A stretch of DNA of 64,000 nucleotides from Natranaeroarchaeum aerophilus (lineage in GTDB: Archaea > Halobacteriota > Halobacteria > Halobacteriales > Natronoarchaeaceae), in contig NZ_JAKRVY010000002.1 in the NCBI RefSeq assembly GCF_023638055.1, positions 186,001 through 250,000 on the forward strand, read 5' to 3'. The position numbers and the translations under genes were made by a program. The notes beneath the pieces are model-generated. The model ran no database searches and was not told the origin of the DNA. It saw only the letters and a list, made by a program, of their open reading frames with translations. Of this stretch, positions 29,788 through 52,096 are shown one piece after another (the first letter of the stretch is position 1; each line of letters opens with the position of its first letter).

Positions 29788-29982
29788 TCACTGTTGGTCG
29801 TCGAGAGCTACGAACGACCCCGCTTTCGCCGATATCCAGGTGGTCGTCTCCCGATCATTCGGGACGTCGGACGGAAAAATAGTACACTCATCGGCTTCGT
29901 CATCGTACTCTTCGATTATCGCGCGGAGCTCGGCGAGGTCTTGGTTGCTCTCGTCTTCGTGGAGCTCGTGTGGTTCGTTCAC
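29788..29982 (-). CDS. Small haloarchaeal protein, DUF7511-like
   Basis: This 64-residue protein starts at GTG 29982. The core LRAIIEEYDDEADECTIFP followed by TTWISAKAGSFVALDD is one I recognise as a common haloarchaeal domain of unknown function. It is the real gene in this stretch; the overlapping plus-strand frame from 29794 to about 30009 is therefore not the beginning of the kinase gene. A TATA-like TTATTTTTTTA on the opposite side (30014-30024) could serve as its promoter. Confidence 0.78.
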   Translation of the reverse strand: MNEPHELHEDESNQDLAELRAIIEEYDDEADECTIFPSDVPNDRETTTWISAKAGSFVALDDQQ

Positions 29983-30009
29983 GGGTGGTATTATGGGACC
30001 GCTGCGGCA

Positions 30010-31074
30010 GTGTTGTTATTTTTTTACCCAGTATTATTAATTCTGACGTTTGCCGTTCCTGTGGGTCTATTACTACTCGCCATGGTTATAGGCATCGAAC
30101 TACTGATACTCCGTATGAGTCGCGTCAAGTCCCTGATCAGCATGTCGCCGCTGAAAATCTCGCTCGGGTACTTGGTATTCGGAATCCTCTGGGTCCCTGG
30201 CACGGACCTGCTGCTGGCCGCGCTCGTTACTACTCAGGCACCGCCGACTGCGATCGGACTGGCAAAAAGCTGGATCTTCATCACCCTTTCTGCCGTGTTA
30301 ATCTACCTGCTCTCGACCATCCACCGCCAGCAGATGTCAACCGCCCAGACGAAGCTACGGGCTGCGAACGAACAACTGCAGGTGCTCCACCGCGTCTTTC
30401 GGCACAACATCCGAAACGACATCAACGTGATACAGGGGTACGCCGAGATCCTTACCGAGCGTCTGGACTGCGAAACGGACCGGGACCACGCCAGAGCGGT
30501 CCAGCAGACTGCCGAAGGGATCACGGCAATCAGCGAGAAGCTGAAGATGCTCGAAAGCGTCGATCCGACCCTCAGCGACGAGCACGTTGTTGATCTTGTC
30601 GAAATCGTCAAAAGCGAGGTCGAACACGCCGAGTCGGGGAATGTCGCCGTCGATATCACGACCGATCTCCCGTCCAGAGCGTGGATCGACTGCGACGAGT
30701 CGATCCGATACGCCGTTCGAGAAGTCCTCGAAAACGCGGTCAGGCACAACGAAAGATCTCCTCGTCAGATCCACATCTCGCTGGATCGGATGGACGGCGC
30801 GGTCTCGCTTGACGTCGAAGACAACGGTCCGGGAATCCCGGATGCGGAACTGCGATCACTCGATGCAGGCGAAGAGACTGCACTCGTCCACGCCAGCAGC
30901 GTCGGTCTGTGGCTGGTCAGGTGGGTGTCACAGCTTCACGACGGCCGGGTTCAGTTCGACACCGAGGATTCCGGCGGGACGACAGTCTCGTTCGAGTTTC
31001 AGGCAGGGTCCAGAACGACGCTCCTCGATGCCGGGACGAGCGTCAACGATCGGATCGAGGCGGTGGCCGACTGA
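30010..31074 (+). CDS. Membrane histidine kinase (start uncertain)
   Basis: About 354 residues if begun at GTG 30010; ATG codons at 30082 and 30115 are alternatives. The first 35 residues are almost purely hydrophobic and AT-rich at DNA level, followed by further helices to about residue 95, then VLHRVFRHNIRNDINVIQGYAEIL (H-box) and a HATPase with REVLENAVRHNER, VEDNGPGIPDAEL and SVGLWLV. No sensor domain beyond the membrane part and no response regulator are evident. The frame is open back to 29794 but that part overlaps the DUF7511 gene. Confidence 0.8.
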   Translation: MLLFFYPVLLILTFAVPVGLLLLAMVIGIELLILRMSRVKSLISMSPLKISLGYLVFGILWVPGTDLLLAALVTTQAPPTAIGLAKSWIFITLSAVLIYLLSTIHRQQMSTAQTKLRAANEQLQVLHRVFRHNIRNDINVIQGYAEILTERLDCETDRDHARAVQQTAEGITAISEKLKMLESVDPTLSDEHVVDLVEIVKSEVEHAESGNVAVDITTDLPSRAWIDCDESIRYAVREVLENAVRHNERSPRQIHISLDRMDGAVSLDVEDNGPGIPDAELRSLDAGEETALVHASSVGLWLVRWVSQLHDGRVQFDTEDSGGTTVSFEFQAGSRTTLLDAGTSVNDRIEAVAD

Positions 31075-31090
31075 CTGGCTCGCTCAGAAG

Positions 31091-31297
31091 GACTCGCGAT
31101 GCTCGACCGTCATGATCCCGTTCGCTACCTTCACGGGATATTCGCTCGCTACAGCCGCTTGCTCACGTACGGCCCCTCACTGCGACCTTTTTCATCGTCG
31201 GTTGGCCACGCTTCGCTCGCCACCACTCCTCGAAAAATCTCGGCCAAAAACTGCTCGCTCGGGACGACTCGCGATGCTCGCCGCCCCAGATCGCTCG
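31091..31297. repeat. Intergenic element with a copy of the elp3 3' end
   Basis: A 34-bp stretch at 31142-31175 is identical to 31291-31324, which contains the last eight codons and stop of elp3. A 15-bp GACTCGCGATGCTCG also occurs in both copies (31091-31105 and 31266-31280). Between them lies a low-complexity block with GCTTCGCTCGCC and poly-A/T runs (31186-31260) like repetitive intergenic elements seen in haloarchaea. ATCCCGT/ACGGGAT at 31115-31139 forms a 7-bp hairpin. No gene is present. Confidence 0.7.
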
Positions 31298-32956
31298 CTA
31301 CAGCCGCTTGCTCACGTACGGCCCGTCCTGATAGTAGCCGAGTTTCTCCCGGTAGTACTCGCGGGCACCGATGCCGCTGATCACGCTGACTTTGTCGTAG
31401 CCTGCGTCGGCAGCCAGCCCTTCTGCGGTCTCGATCAGGCGGCGGCCATACCCCTTGTGCTGGTGCTGGTCACCCGCTGCATCCTTGCCGATCCCCGCCT
31501 CACTGCCGTACACGTGGAGTTCACGGACCAGCGCGGCGTCCTGTAGCTCCCTGCGTACGGGGTTGTTCGGGAACCGCAGTCGACAGAAGCCGACCAGGAG
31601 ATCCTTCTCGAAGTCCTCGAAGCTGATGAAGTGTTCCGTCCCGCCGCTTGCCTCGTAGGTCATCACGTCGAGCTCGATGTTTTCGGGCTCCTCGTCGTTC
31701 ATTCCCGCCTCACGGGACCGGATATCCTCACACTCCCAGCCGTGGTTGTCCATCTCCTTCCAGGCGAGCTGGCGGAGGTTGGACTTCCAGACCCCGGCGT
31801 CGATGAAATCCGCTGGGATGTCCCGCTGGACGCGCTGGAGCCGGGTGTACCGGGGGATCATCGACATGATCTCGGCGACGATCTCGGCGGCCTCCTCGTT
31901 GGTCAGCGGATCGTACTCGCCGTCGTGCCACATGTCGTAGGTCCGGGTCCCGCGGACGATCAGCGTCGGGTAGATCTTCAGGTAATCGGGCTTCCACTCC
32001 TCGTCTTCGAACAGCCGGCGGAAGTCCTCGAGACACATCTCGTGGGACATGCCGGGCTGGCCGGGCATCATGTGGAAGCCGACCTTGAACGCGGCGTCCC
32101 GGAGCCGTCGATTGGCGTCGATCGACGCCTGCGCGCCGTGCCCCCGATGCATCTCGCGGTTGATCCGCTCGAACGTCGTCTGGACGCCGACCTCGACTTT
32201 CGTACCGCCCAGATCGAGCATCCGGTCGATCTGTTCCGGATCGCACCAGTCGGGCTTCGTCTCGAAGGTCGTCCCGATGTTTCTGATCTCGTTTGTCTCG
32301 TTTCTCGCGATGACGTCTTCGAGGTACTCGAACTCGACGTCTTCGGGATCGGGTGCGAAACTCAGTTCCTCGGCGGGCGAGGGCTCTGCGTCCAGATCGT
32401 AGTCGTTCATCGCCTGGAGGGCGCGCTTGACGAACCACTCCTGGTAGTCGTGGCTCCGGGCGGTCATCGTCCCGCCCATCAGGATCAACTCGACCTTGTC
32501 GACGGGGTGGCCGATCTCCCGAAGCTGGTGGAGCCGCAGGGTGACCTGCCCATAGGGGTCGTAGTCGTTTTGCTCGCCGCGGGCCGCCGCCGGTTCGTGG
32601 CCGGTGTAGCTCTGCGAGCTCGAAAACTCCGAGCCCGGCCCGCCGGGACAGTACAGACACTTCCCGTGCGGGCAGTTGTGCGGGCTCGTCATGATCGCCA
32701 CTGGTGAGACGCCCGAGGCCGTCCTGACCGGCTTGCGCTGCAGGACGGCTTCCAGTTCCTCGCGACGCTCCTGTGGTGCGTAGTCCAGTAGCTCGGTATG
32801 TTTGGGCACCTTCGGCGAGGAAAACTCCGAGCAGACGTCGAGCTTGGCGCTCTCAAGATCCTCTCGGTCTACGTCCCCCGCGAGGATCCGATCAACCAAC
32901 TCCGCACAGGCGTTCTCGAACGCCTCGCTCTCCGTGGCGTCCGACTCGGTACTCAT
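31298..32956 (-). CDS. elp3: tRNA uridine(34) 5-carboxymethyl modification enzyme Elp3
   Basis: This 552-residue protein combines a radical-SAM domain with the iron-sulfur cysteines C95, C100 and C103 (NCPHGKCLYCPGGPG) and a C-terminal GNAT acetyltransferase domain (GKDAAGDQHQHKGYGRRL). Archaeal Elp3 modifies the wobble uridine of tRNA using acetyl-CoA and SAM. The ATG at 32956 (MSTESDATESEAF) was preferred to earlier in-frame codons that lack conservation-like sequence. The 3' end is duplicated downstream. Confidence 0.95.
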   Translation of the reverse strand: MSTESDATESEAFENACAELVDRILAGDVDREDLESAKLDVCSEFSSPKVPKHTELLDYAPQERREELEAVLQRKPVRTASGVSPVAIMTSPHNCPHGKCLYCPGGPGSEFSSSQSYTGHEPAAARGEQNDYDPYGQVTLRLHQLREIGHPVDKVELILMGGTMTARSHDYQEWFVKRALQAMNDYDLDAEPSPAEELSFAPDPEDVEFEYLEDVIARNETNEIRNIGTTFETKPDWCDPEQIDRMLDLGGTKVEVGVQTTFERINREMHRGHGAQASIDANRRLRDAAFKVGFHMMPGQPGMSHEMCLEDFRRLFEDEEWKPDYLKIYPTLIVRGTRTYDMWHDGEYDPLTNEEAAEIVAEIMSMIPRYTRLQRVQRDIPADFIDAGVWKSNLRQLAWKEMDNHGWECEDIRSREAGMNDEEPENIELDVMTYEASGGTEHFISFEDFEKDLLVGFCRLRFPNNPVRRELQDAALVRELHVYGSEAGIGKDAAGDQHQHKGYGRRLIETAEGLAADAGYDKVSVISGIGAREYYREKLGYYQDGPYVSKRL

Positions 32957-32999
32957 TACCGGAATAAAGCGACTTGCCGCGAATAAGGGTATCGACTGA

Positions 33000-35180
33000 T
33001 TACAGCTCGCTCGCGATCGATGCGATGACGGCTTCGAGCACGTCATCACGGCCGCCCGCGAGGAACTCGATGTGACCGTCACGCCCGCCGACTGCGGAGA
33101 CGGCCGCGTTGTCGGCTCGCTCTGCGGCGTGTCCGGCGATCTCGCGGACGTCGAGGCCAACCGAGCTACGCACGTGGATCTCGTCGTCGTCGACGCCGAG
33201 CGTCACGAGTGGCGTCCCCAGCTCCTCGCTCTCGCGCCGGTGGAGTGCGTCGACGAGCAGCGTCGTCGTCGGGAAGTCATACTGGTGGGTGTACGCGTCG
33301 GTATCGAGGACCGCGAAGTGGACTCCCTTCGCCTCCCGCGTGGTCAGGTTCCGCTCGGCCGTCCCGATCTCGGTGTCGAGTTTCGTTCGGAACTGCTCGC
33401 TGACGTGCCCGGCGAGCCCTTCGGCGCGCTCGAACAGCAGATCCGTGATGAGCTCGCGTTTGTCACGATAGGTCTGGTAGAACGCTTCCAGCGCAATGGC
33501 TTCGCGAAGTTCCTGCACTGCCTCGGTGTCGTAGCCCGCTTCGCTGGCAAGCTCGACGTACTGCTCGGGAGCGGCTTCCCAGTACCCAACTGCGGGGACG
33601 TGTTCGAGATCCGCGCGAACGTCGGGATTGACCGCCGCAGCGACGTTCGCCGCGATTGCGGGCGTCGTGACGTCCTCGGCGGAAACGAAGGTGTCGACGG
33701 CTGAATCGACACCCTCGTCCGGCGCGTGGGTGTCGAGAACGACACGTTCGACGTCGTAGACGTCCAGCAGTTCGTAGCCGTCTCTGGACTCTTTCGTGCT
33801 GCCGACGTCTACGAGCACGACCAGAGGTAGCTGTTCGCCGTGTCGCTCACGGGCTTCCAGCATGTTCGTCACGTCGTTGGTCGCGGCCTCCATGTCGTAG
33901 ATGTGGCCTTCGAGCGGTCGTCGGTTGAAGTAGTTGTAGACCGCGTCCTGTCGGTCGTGTTCCTCGCGGATCAGCGGGAGCGCGGCGCGTTCGAGCGCGG
34001 CACCGGCCGCGTAGCCGTCGGCGGTCGCGCTGTGCCGGACGACGATCGGTCGACCGACCATGATGGCACGGCGGATCGCCGTGCTGGCGGCCTCGATCCC
34101 GTCTTCGACCGCAGCGACGGCGTCGTGGTCGGCCAGCAGGTCGATCTCGTCGGGCCGGGCAGCCTCGGAAAGGGCGGCGTTCAGACGGTCCTCGACGACC
34201 GCGCGCTCGCCGCCGGTCAGTTCGATCAGGGCTTCGGTTTCGACCTGCAGTTCCTCACGTCGGAGCTCGACCTCGCCGTCGAGTCTGACGAAGTCGTCGG
34301 TCTCGATGTCGGGATAGGCTCGAACGCCCGCTTCCTCGAAGGCGGCACACTCGACGGTGCCGGTCTCGTCTCGCAGTTCGAAGATCGTCGGCCCGCTGGT
34401 CTGTCGGACACTCACGACTTCGCCCTCGATCCGGACGCGATCGCCCACACGATCGTCGAGGGTGTCGATCCCGGAGCGTTCGATCGTCTCCGCCGCGACA
34501 TCGTCTGCCGACTCGTCGTCGCTGTCCGGCTCCGCATCATCCGGCTCGGCATGGTCGTCCGGCTCTTTCTCGTCGTCCGGTTCGACATCTTCGAGGTCCG
34601 ACTCCGCGTCGTCCGCCTCGTCGTCCCCTTCGTCAGACTCGTCGACGAGCGTCTCGACTGCCTCGTCGACTGCCGTCGTCGCGTCCTCGGTCTGTTGTTC
34701 TGCCTGCGTCGTGCCACCGTTCGGTGTCACCGTCTCCGTGGTGTCAGGTGTTGTGTCGTCGACCGTTGCCGACGACTTATCGGCGTTTCCCGACTCGTCC
34801 TCCTCGTGCACTTTGTCTCCGCTCGGTGCGTCAACCAGTCGGCCGCGGAAATCCCGATCCTCCTGCCGGATCGACCAGCCCAGGTCGACGTCGCCGTTGT
34901 CGCGAACCGATTTGACCTTGACGTACATGTCGTCGCCGGTATCCCAGTCGAGGCTGTCGAGTCGCTGGTCGAGTTCGCTGCGGTGGAGGAGCCCAGTGAC
35001 ACTGTCGCCGATGTTGACGAAGACGCCGAACTCGGCGAAGCCATCGACCTGTCCCCTGTAATACCGGTTCGGTGTGAGCTGATCCGGGGAGTTCCCACGG
35101 AACTCGAACGCGACGTCCTCTTCGTGTGTGCTACAGACGAGCCCATCCACGGGCTTGCCACAGATGATACAGTTGCTCAT
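33000..35180 (-). CDS. DHH/RecJ-like protein with S1 and OB domains
   Basis: This 726-residue protein begins with a small zinc-binding segment (CIICGKPVDGLVCSTHEED), an S1 RNA-binding domain (YYRGQVDGFAEFGVFVNIGD), a very acidic low-complexity linker (about 125-235), an OB-fold (VRIEGEVVSVRQTSG) and a DHH-type phosphoesterase core. The DHH motifs are altered: ATADGYAAGAAL lacks one aspartate and the DHH triplet reads DTH in VLDTHAPDEG. Relatives are annotated as RecJ-like single-strand exonucleases; this copy may have changed or lost catalysis. Confidence 0.85.
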   Translation of the reverse strand: MSNCIICGKPVDGLVCSTHEEDVAFEFRGNSPDQLTPNRYYRGQVDGFAEFGVFVNIGDSVTGLLHRSELDQRLDSLDWDTGDDMYVKVKSVRDNGDVDLGWSIRQEDRDFRGRLVDAPSGDKVHEEDESGNADKSSATVDDTTPDTTETVTPNGGTTQAEQQTEDATTAVDEAVETLVDESDEGDDEADDAESDLEDVEPDDEKEPDDHAEPDDAEPDSDDESADDVAAETIERSGIDTLDDRVGDRVRIEGEVVSVRQTSGPTIFELRDETGTVECAAFEEAGVRAYPDIETDDFVRLDGEVELRREELQVETEALIELTGGERAVVEDRLNAALSEAARPDEIDLLADHDAVAAVEDGIEAASTAIRRAIMVGRPIVVRHSATADGYAAGAALERAALPLIREEHDRQDAVYNYFNRRPLEGHIYDMEAATNDVTNMLEARERHGEQLPLVVLVDVGSTKESRDGYELLDVYDVERVVLDTHAPDEGVDSAVDTFVSAEDVTTPAIAANVAAAVNPDVRADLEHVPAVGYWEAAPEQYVELASEAGYDTEAVQELREAIALEAFYQTYRDKRELITDLLFERAEGLAGHVSEQFRTKLDTEIGTAERNLTTREAKGVHFAVLDTDAYTHQYDFPTTTLLVDALHRRESEELGTPLVTLGVDDDEIHVRSSVGLDVREIAGHAAERADNAAVSAVGGRDGHIEFLAGGRDDVLEAVIASIASEL

Positions 35181-51392: not shown

Positions 51393-51448
51393 CTCAGTCT
51401 TTCCGCACGCCCATCTGTAGTTGATCCGTTCCGTACGCCCGGCTATAG

Positions 51449-52096
51449 CTAATCCGTTCCGTACGCCCGGTTGAACCGGCTTTCGGAGAGCAAGAGGTCT
51501 TCCATTGCGGGCATGTGTTTGACGTTGAAGACGACTTTCGTGTCCTCGGTCACCGGCGTCGTGATACAGGACAGTCGGATTCCTCGGTCGATCATCTCCT
51601 GAGTGAGAACGTGGCTCGTCGGAATCGGAACCTCACCGTCGATCACCGCGACGGCGCAGTTCGAGCAGGCCCCGCCACGACAGGCGAATGGCCACGCCAG
51701 CCCGGCGTTCTCGGCGGCTTCGAGCAACGTCTCCCGTTCCTCGACAGTGATTTCGCCGTAGTCTGCGTTCCCCAGATTCGCGTCGGCCGCCTTCTCGAAG
51801 AGGTCCTCGTCGTCGAGGCTCCAGCCGTGCTCGTCCAGTCGCTCGTAGTTGAGAAACTCAACCCGATACTGCGGACGTTTTTCCGTCTCTTCGACAGGGT
51901 CGCTCCCCTCGTGAACGGAGACGGGACTGACCTTGCCCGCCTCGATCCGCTCGTAGGCAGTCTTGACGGCCTGGAACGCGCGAGCGGAGCCGCCATGATC
52001 GGGATGGGTCTCCTTGACCCGTTCCCGGTAGGCCTCCAGTAGTTCCTCCTCGTCCGCGTCGCGGGCGACGCCGAGGATGTCGTACGGGGATGCCAC
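51449..52096 (-). CDS. J-domain fused to 2Fe-2S ferredoxin
   Basis: This 215-residue protein joins an N-terminal DnaJ-type J-domain (SPYDILGVARDADEEELLEAYRERV, with HPDHGGS carrying the HPD motif near residue 32-34) to a plant-type ferredoxin. The cluster cysteines are in CRGGACSNC and SCITTP. The ferredoxin resembles halophilic 2Fe-2S ferredoxins with an acidic insertion. A J-domain would recruit Hsp70 (DnaK), perhaps for folding or cluster insertion. Confidence 0.9.
   Translation of the reverse strand: MASPYDILGVARDADEEELLEAYRERVKETHPDHGGSARAFQAVKTAYERIEAGKVSPVSVHEGSDPVEETEKRPQYRVEFLNYERLDEHGWSLDDEDLFEKAADANLGNADYGEITVEERETLLEAAENAGLAWPFACRGGACSNCAVAVIDGEVPIPTSHVLTQEMIDRGIRLSCITTPVTEDTKVVFNVKHMPAMEDLLLSESRFNRAYGTD

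Follow-up and report, generated by a model that had tools for sequence, protein, structure and literature searches.

The 3' end of elp3 in Natranaeroarchaeum aerophilus is present twice: the last codons of the gene and their stop recur on the far side of an intergenic block. How does a gene come to be followed by a second copy of its own end, and what is the block between the two? The locus lies in a window of 64,000 nucleotides (contig NZ_JAKRVY010000002.1, positions 186,001 to 250,000), the whole stretch of DNA that was analysed and to which all coordinates below refer. It was compared with the rest of the same genome (G000) and with related genomes.

The duplicated end of elp3

The elp3 ORF (31298..33160, minus strand, start codon unassigned) contains the Pfam domains ELP3_N, Radical_SAM and Acetyltransf_1. 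Its left tail copy, L (31291..31327, minus strand), comprises the final nine codons, the stop and 7 nt, and reads DGPYVSKRL*. The right tail copy, R (31142..31178, minus strand), reads EGPYVSKRL*, likewise followed by 7 nt, and starts 6 nt past a conserved AAAAAGGT. The two copies share 36 of 37 nt at a spacing of 149, and the 34-bp identical segment reported in the first-pass annotation is the core of this repeat. That annotation had also recognised a 15-bp block repeated at a different spacing; this exact 15-mer, GACTCGCGATGCTCG, at 31091-31105 and 31266-31280, lies inside a 28-nt UTR repeat (L-side copy 31253..31280, R-side copy 31078..31105, both minus strand) that is identical at 25 of 28 positions with a spacing of 175. 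The two repeats are spaced differently because the downstream UTR copy carries about 30 nt extra before the convergent gene. The latter (29794..31074, plus strand) is histidine-kinase-like, its ORF having an HATPase_c domain and a HisKA match under its cut-off.

As a direct repeat the window pair scores 69, and mismatched left and right flank pairs from elsewhere reach 44 in 4 of 414 and 1 of 297 cases. The tails differ in one codon (D/E), and the 7 post-stop nucleotides and the UTR repeat are kept in both; with 30 coding nucleotides and a single nonsynonymous difference, the pair offers too little to decide allele descent. When 40 relatives were searched with the end of elp3, the tail proved to be duplicated in G002, G024 and G003 as well, and the block between the tails (31260-31181) matched many other places. 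In the congener G001 a shortened element and a remnant of R are visible by eye at elp3 (L003), where our covariance model R1 (see below) has no match; we take this as a later deletion. Since like cases occur in many genomes, a chance repeat or an assembly error was rejected, and the window pair is an ordinary, somewhat decayed member of a class. A pattern search with the 15-mer stayed at an uninformative level (14 and 23 matches; control 14 and 15).

Mirror-symmetric GAGCGAAGCGAG / GAACGnAGTGAG stems with tandem G.A are frequent in haloarchaeal UTRs, also away from the element; those at 31078-31105 and 31253-31280 are examples. The top-scoring tandem repeat of the window lies elsewhere, at 51401-51470, and consists of 2.5 copies of a 28-bp unit.

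A structured element between the tails

The sequence between the tails had been described as low-complexity filler. This description does not hold: the GCTTCGCTCGCC text is a hairpin stem, and the oligo-T/oligo-A block is a 72-nt structured element (31182..31253, minus strand), delimited by R1 and covariation, so that a low-complexity expansion was rejected. It is the only R1 match in the window (74.7 bits, E 2.1e-15) and reads CAG-TTTTT-GGCCGAGA-TTTTT-CGAGGAGTGGT-stem-AACCGACGATG-AAAAA-GGTCGC. The first T5 run (31246..31250, minus strand) is terminator-like for elp3, resembling the T-stretch terminators of Haloferax (PMC7237163). The second T5 run (31233..31237, minus strand) forms the foot of the hairpin and pairs, as judged by covariation, with the A5 run (31188..31192, minus strand), which is a T5 run for the convergent gene and is followed by GGTCGC.

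Across copies, the scheme is T5-NNN-T5-hairpin-A5-GGT-N'N'N'. In the direction of the upstream gene, one or two small GC hairpins often follow the stop; next come CTTTTT and a spacer whose last three positions are NNN, then TTTTT and a short arm leading into GAGTGGT. A variable stem separates this from ACCCGA, behind which stand the matching arm, AAAAAGGT and N'N'N'. At the foot of the hairpin, 88 of 91 cores have a Watson-Crick pair at -4/+4 (shuffles: mean 37, maximum 51) and 85 of 91 at -5/+5 (shuffle maximum 63), while -6/+6 is unpaired (16/91). Further in, Watson-Crick pairing is seen in 103/120, 110/120 and 110/117 copies for inner pairs 1, 3 and 4 and in just 67/120 for inner pair 2 (shuffle maximum 55), and the two inner positions past pair 4 are mostly G.A and often A.G. 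In alignment A1 (47 sequences) 89.9% of cells are paired, and its covariation score is 0.284 against 0.098 when shuffled (0/500), with slid controls at or below 0.090.

The five well-paired variable positions comprise 539 cells, 496 of them Watson-Crick; G-T or T-G accounts for 5 cells among the listed types, and 5 more cells are of unlisted type. RNA helices usually tolerate more G-T pairs. The presence of so few at covarying positions suggests that the structure may act as folded DNA, or on both strands. For six copies, the window's first, DNA folding gave z-scores of -0.48, -2.15, -1.95, 0.49, -2.53 and -2.38, and RNA folding gave -0.55, -3.77, -3.13, -0.31, -3.65 and -2.23; shuffled sequences fold as well as the window copy and L139 do. 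Among six loci checked against Rfam, the sole match above the gathering score was the tRNA in L071. The structured element is widespread and, as far as these six loci show, absent from Rfam.

A longer element of about 170 nt, with three hairpins and conserved flanks, is present at non-homologous sites in L142, L158, L165, L177, L199, L202 and L233. It carries AAAAAGGTACGT..CATGTAACG on the right, and its hosts include Natronococcus and Natrialba.

Distribution

R1 detected the element in 107 of 116 genomes of the order (at least 90% complete) at E 0.001, with 1-35 matches each; 42 candidates were scored per genome, making these copy counts lower bounds. A search for the exact core pattern was positive in 80 of 195 genomes from the order, with 0 control matches among the rows listed. 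G000 itself has at least six R1 matches at E 0.1, with 150 of 3133 candidates scored. Uniqueness in the genome, which the first-pass annotation had set against mobility, holds for the exact 234-bp block of the window, which occurs once, yet not for the element, with its six matches.

Among 80 loci with listed names in a set of 120, 62 are haloarchaeal (Haloarcula, Halorubrum, Natrialba, Natrinema, Halococcus, Halovenus and others). None of the 18 non-haloarchaeal loci has the T-run and A-run flanks, and none is in our set of 140 cores, for which both flanks are required. Viral contigs contain the core pattern in three stretches. One 201-base Halorubrum query had no phage match and matched seven haloarchaeal plasmid records; on the viral-contig and phage results a viral origin was rejected. 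Among the best-ranked matches in the open-access literature, no earlier description of the element was found.

Placement at gene ends and duplication of tails

In the first set, 133 of the 140 copies could be used for placement. The stop of a convergent ORF of at least 100 aa lies within 20 nt of the right end in 46 (median 3 nt; 5.9% for random positions), 39 have a tail duplication, 12 sit at a tRNA end and 36 show none of these, though several of the 36 start, by eye, with truncated tRNA or thiolase tails. A second set of 60 R1 matches, hand-picked near the top of the score list with earlier-fetched places skipped and thus not random, yielded 17 direct repeats, 25 convergent stops, about 10 tRNA ends by eye and 8 with none. 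In both sets most elements sit immediately at the 3' end of a gene. The tRNA counterpart of the tail duplications is seen in L074, L094, L226 and L333, where part of a tRNA 3' end is repeated next to the element.

The first-pass proposal to look for copies at other gene ends with duplicated tails led to a positive result. A direct repeat across the core (score at least 44) is present in 43 of 138 copies of the first set (138 of 140 cores used; tandem copies counted separately, and a few being tRNA or hairpin repeats), against 4 of 414 mismatched pairs. The corresponding figures for the second set are 17 of 60 and 1 of 297, with 15 of the 17 readable as a gene end. Five of the six matches in G000 have a duplicated neighbouring end, namely those of elp3, nuoI, an HhH protein, a thiolase and hisH. 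The genes that we take to be nuoI, ileS, tiaS, hisH, etfA, HhH and thiolase are named from our reading of their translations rather than from database matches. In 24 of 43 rows the first base of the repeat lies 6-8 nt past AAAAAGGT, several zeros being second array units that share a junction, and the duplicated gene stretch ranges from 16 to about 225 nt.

Duplicated tails appear to be specific to the element. Among 554 gene ends in the window and the named-locus set, 10 have a duplicated tail, and 9 of these are at an element (six recognised through a core motif, two by eye, namely the window and L231, and L189 minus, which is the L189 plus locus); the tenth, L187, is a coding repeat without an element. 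This figure is evidence of specificity and not of frequency, because the loci had been picked for holding the core. The same genes are struck across several families: nuoI is duplicated at 7 of 29 readable loci and ileS at 7 of 29, one of the latter (G199) without a clear element, with one further locus unreadable for each gene; tiaS, hisH, thiolase, etfA and others are also struck. In the nuoI, ileS and gene U loci (gene U is described below) the stop of L lies about 90-265 nt from the start of R. By eye, no TnpB-like motif before the start of the duplication was common to the loci.

Arrays generally consist of n elements and n+1 tails, as in L005, L088, L123 and L139 with two elements and three tails; L083, with two tails and two cores, is an exception. 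At the thiolase of G000 (L285, C8:136326) a second identical unit starts but is cut off by a run of N, perhaps a sign that the assembly collapsed a tandem array. Between nuoI and nuoJ, to the right of R, extra minus-strand ORFs are present in L255, L252 and L253 (G000, G005 and G003); by our own reading they look like a vapBC toxin-antitoxin pair, which seems to have been lost in G001.

Evidence that the two tails can differ in descent

L and R were compared in 51 of 59 pairs, eight having no readable frame. Pairs from tandem loci were counted separately, the non-coding L302 was left out, and the possibly misframed first copy of L088, L163 and L226 were kept. The pairs show 100 synonymous and 43 nonsynonymous differences (pS 0.151, pN 0.021, pN/pS 0.14). 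A dead tandem copy was rejected on this ratio; R does not look like a copy made in place and left to decay, and probably was once a functional gene end.

For nuoI, all eight genomes with a long R have R closest to their own L (two ties), and the same is true of the three long ileS tails, so tails are homogenised or recent as well. The ileS identities between L and R are 197/225 in G011, 212/225 in G205 and 195/199 in G214 (the tail query ended at 225 nt); the repeats start at query position 446-447 in all three, and the tails are 68-75% identical between genera, with one genome available for comparison in the genus of G011. Together, the synonymous excess and the nuoI and ileS comparisons indicate tails exchanged or renewed under coding constraint.

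Allele descent can be read directly in a gene that we call U, ending ...VVQRDGTFVFEDGFE-, which was fetched from 30 genomes of one genus. Of these, 26 loci were counted (G247, G234, G240 and G248, in the wrong frame, were left out), and 12 have the duplication. The insertion-free G130 has the end FEA* and a downstream flank 1, and the insertion-free G251 has FED* and flank 2. In six genomes (G083, G124, G161, G156, G235 and G027) L ends in FED* and is followed by the flank-2 type of UTR start and the hairpin, and R then has the resident end (FEA* in five, altered in G124) and flank 1. The sequence after R in these six is identical to that of G130 at 87-113 of 96-119 nt (scores 151-209), and that after L scores 15-20. 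L and hairpin are of this kind in G090, G176 and G241 too, where R has FED* and flank 2. In G237, L ends in FEG*, R ends differently and its flank matches the insertion-free G231 at 99/119; in G238, L ends in FEG* and R in FEA*. By eye, the 5' parts of R in G083 and G124 resemble their own L.

The insertion state is scattered over the gene-body tree, with 6 changes against a shuffled mean of 5.7. Three pairs of sisters differ in it: G130/G176 (support 100/98), G231/G237 (98/95) and G251/G241 (92/93). R1 finds the element in gene U of G241 and G237, with no match in G251, G130 and G231. Compared by eye with its empty sister G251, the occupied G241 has about 84 nt inserted and about 66 nt duplicated, the latter being the tail and the first UTR bases. 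The alignments thus show that in gene U, L with its UTR and hairpin and R with its flank come from different alleles, so that the hairpin marks where an incoming gene end meets the resident one.

A second gene supports differing descent of the two tails. In elp3 of G002, the gene body and L appear closest to G006 (L at 61/63) and R to G004 (60/63), and all six L/R differences are synonymous. Here R looks foreign; the foreign part is not always L, so the direction is not uniform.

A proposed mechanism and its alternatives

The element is multi-copy, has a structure kept by covariation, lies near gene 3' ends and is often accompanied by a direct repeat of the host tail. With a little more confidence than doubt, we propose that it is a gene-free mobile hairpin element of haloarchaeal gene 3' ends, paired with a gene-specific tail. 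Because the L and R flanks of gene U differ in origin, a unit of tail and hairpin seems to have been recombined in, displacing the resident end. Homologous recombination at the tail would carry such a unit from one related genome to another, the tail acting like an att site and making entry independent of downstream sequence. Where the crossover falls would decide whether L or R is foreign, and the same recombination could remove or multiply the element. The first arrival at a new gene may, more speculatively, depend on some activity that works on the hairpin folded as DNA. Haloarchaea are reported to recombine between species and to undergo efficient gene conversion in their polyploid cells (PMC4500145, PMC8223754, PMC11276520). 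The element is probably also a two-way transcription terminator; haloarchaeal (Haloferax) termination occurs at T stretches like its T5-C runs (PMC7237163). The first-pass suggestion of a small mobile or expanding repeat that copied the gene end accordingly splits in two: its presence at other gene ends and the arrays of two elements and three tails bear out mobility and expansion, and simple copying in place is probably wrong, since the two ends differ in descent.

Some observations weigh against this proposal. Direct allele support for exchange comes from gene U in one genus and elp3 of G002, and G241, G090 and G176 also fit insertion in place with a long duplication. Neither a duplication, a convergent ORF nor a recognised tRNA is present at 8 of 60 and 36 of 133 copies. 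On the same side weigh the nuoI and ileS tails that are closest to their own L, the differing direction in G002, the R 5' parts of G083 and G124, the ileS duplication of G199, the unpaired -6/+6, the weak inner pair 2 and the folding of the window copy and L139. This analysis found no enzyme and no free DNA consisting of an element and a tail. The pattern itself is firm; direct support for the exchange model comes from few loci.

An alternative that we consider unlikely, and that still deserves a serious hearing, is a transposable hairpin that inserts at or just past gene ends with a long, variable target-site duplication (about 15-225 nt), the copies of which would stay alike as gene conversion acts on L and R, either mutually or from insertion-free alleles. 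The empty and occupied sisters G251 and G241 fit it, as do the 24 of 43 repeats that start 6-8 nt past AAAAAGGT, the mirror arrangement at the tRNA in L226, and the efficient intermolecular gene conversion reported for polyploid Haloferax (PMC8223754, PMC11276520). A dead copy would nevertheless not be expected to show a pN/pS of 0.14, L and R differ in C-terminus with resident flanks behind R, and the duplication length is highly variable. Nor does a Y1 transposase track copy number: PF01797 is present in 19 of 40 genomes and was not found in G006, G013, G032, G035 and G030, which have 9-27 R1 matches, and dependence on it was rejected. Improbable, in our judgement, is a strong DNA hairpin at which slipped replication or illegitimate recombination repeatedly gave a tandem of tail and terminator, the second terminator then being lost. 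This would account for the tandem units in L005, L088, L123, L139 and L192 and for right copies that run into a truncated or diverged second core in L083, L106, L115 and L160 (the L083 core found by R1), but many right copies stop at or near the stop codon, those of gene U join a flank also present in insertion-free relatives, and the divergence is mostly synonymous.

Selection could instead maintain ordinary, immobile two-way terminators beside which tail duplications are incidental. The T5 runs on both strands, the median of 3 nt to a convergent stop (46/133, null 5.9%) and the haloarchaeal termination at T stretches (PMC7237163) agree with this. A plain T-run terminator, however, could do without the conserved GAGTGG/CCCGA loop and without a covarying foot, one element recurs at unrelated genes, and in the 554-end comparison tail duplication is confined to the element; we regard this explanation as very improbable. 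An RNA-templated insertion of retroelement or diversity-generating type is scarcely credible. The order of gene end, hairpin and tail copy does resemble the layout of such systems, in which the last part would be the template copy. Against it, the reverse transcriptase PF00078 is present in 0 of 40 relatives, G000 included (control genomes were positive in 3 of 14), on which reverse transcription was rejected, and G-T pairs are few at covarying positions. A diversity-generating layout was also rejected by eye, there being no A-biased changes.

Relation to known systems

Integrative elements have attL and attR in gene 3' ends and include relics that can be mobilised in cis. The element resembles integrase-type elements and their relics in the direct repeats of the gene 3' end (in part of the copies), in the incoming end that restores the gene, in the housekeeping and tRNA genes struck and in tandem accretion. 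Unlike them, it leaves no room between the repeats for a recombinase gene and has no single att per family: the repeat is the end of whichever gene is struck, and the hairpin is what is common. Like integron attC sites, it is a folded-DNA hairpin after an ORF, conserved in structure over sequence; unlike attC, it has a duplicated tail beside it. REP/BIME palindromes with RAYT transposases are also short, structured, multi-copy intergenic hairpins. Compared with these (PMC3733652), the element has no GTAG-type tag, its foot positions -4/-5 vary and covary, it is associated with gene-tail duplications and it is not tied to a Y1 transposase. It shares with MITEs, including the haloarchaeal ones (PMC3119063), the character of non-coding, multi-copy inverted-repeat DNA, but differs from MITEs and DNA transposons in lacking a short constant target duplication (16-225 nt here) and a recognised parent transposase. 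T5-C runs just past stops on both strands are also a feature of archaeal T-tract terminators (PMC7237163); the conserved asymmetric loop and covarying foot go beyond what such terminators need. Membership tests place the element in none of the families tested.

A more specific version of our proposal, in which we have more doubt than trust and which we offer tentatively, would see a recombinase-free class of mobile cassettes, in which a folded-DNA hairpin is joined to a tail that differs by gene and would be a portable attachment site. Such cassettes would spread between haloarchaeal species by recombination at the end of the same gene, rewriting housekeeping C-termini and terminators, and a host factor would read the GAGTGG/CCCGA loop. 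If the proposal is right, the 3' ends of core haloarchaeal genes are swapped horizontally in hairpin-bordered cassettes, DNA moves without an encoded enzyme, and the process is a source of C-terminal variation. Each such locus would also be a readable record of recombination between species, one tail being the relic of another allele. Annotation and transcription work on archaeal 3' ends should reckon with this widespread structured element.
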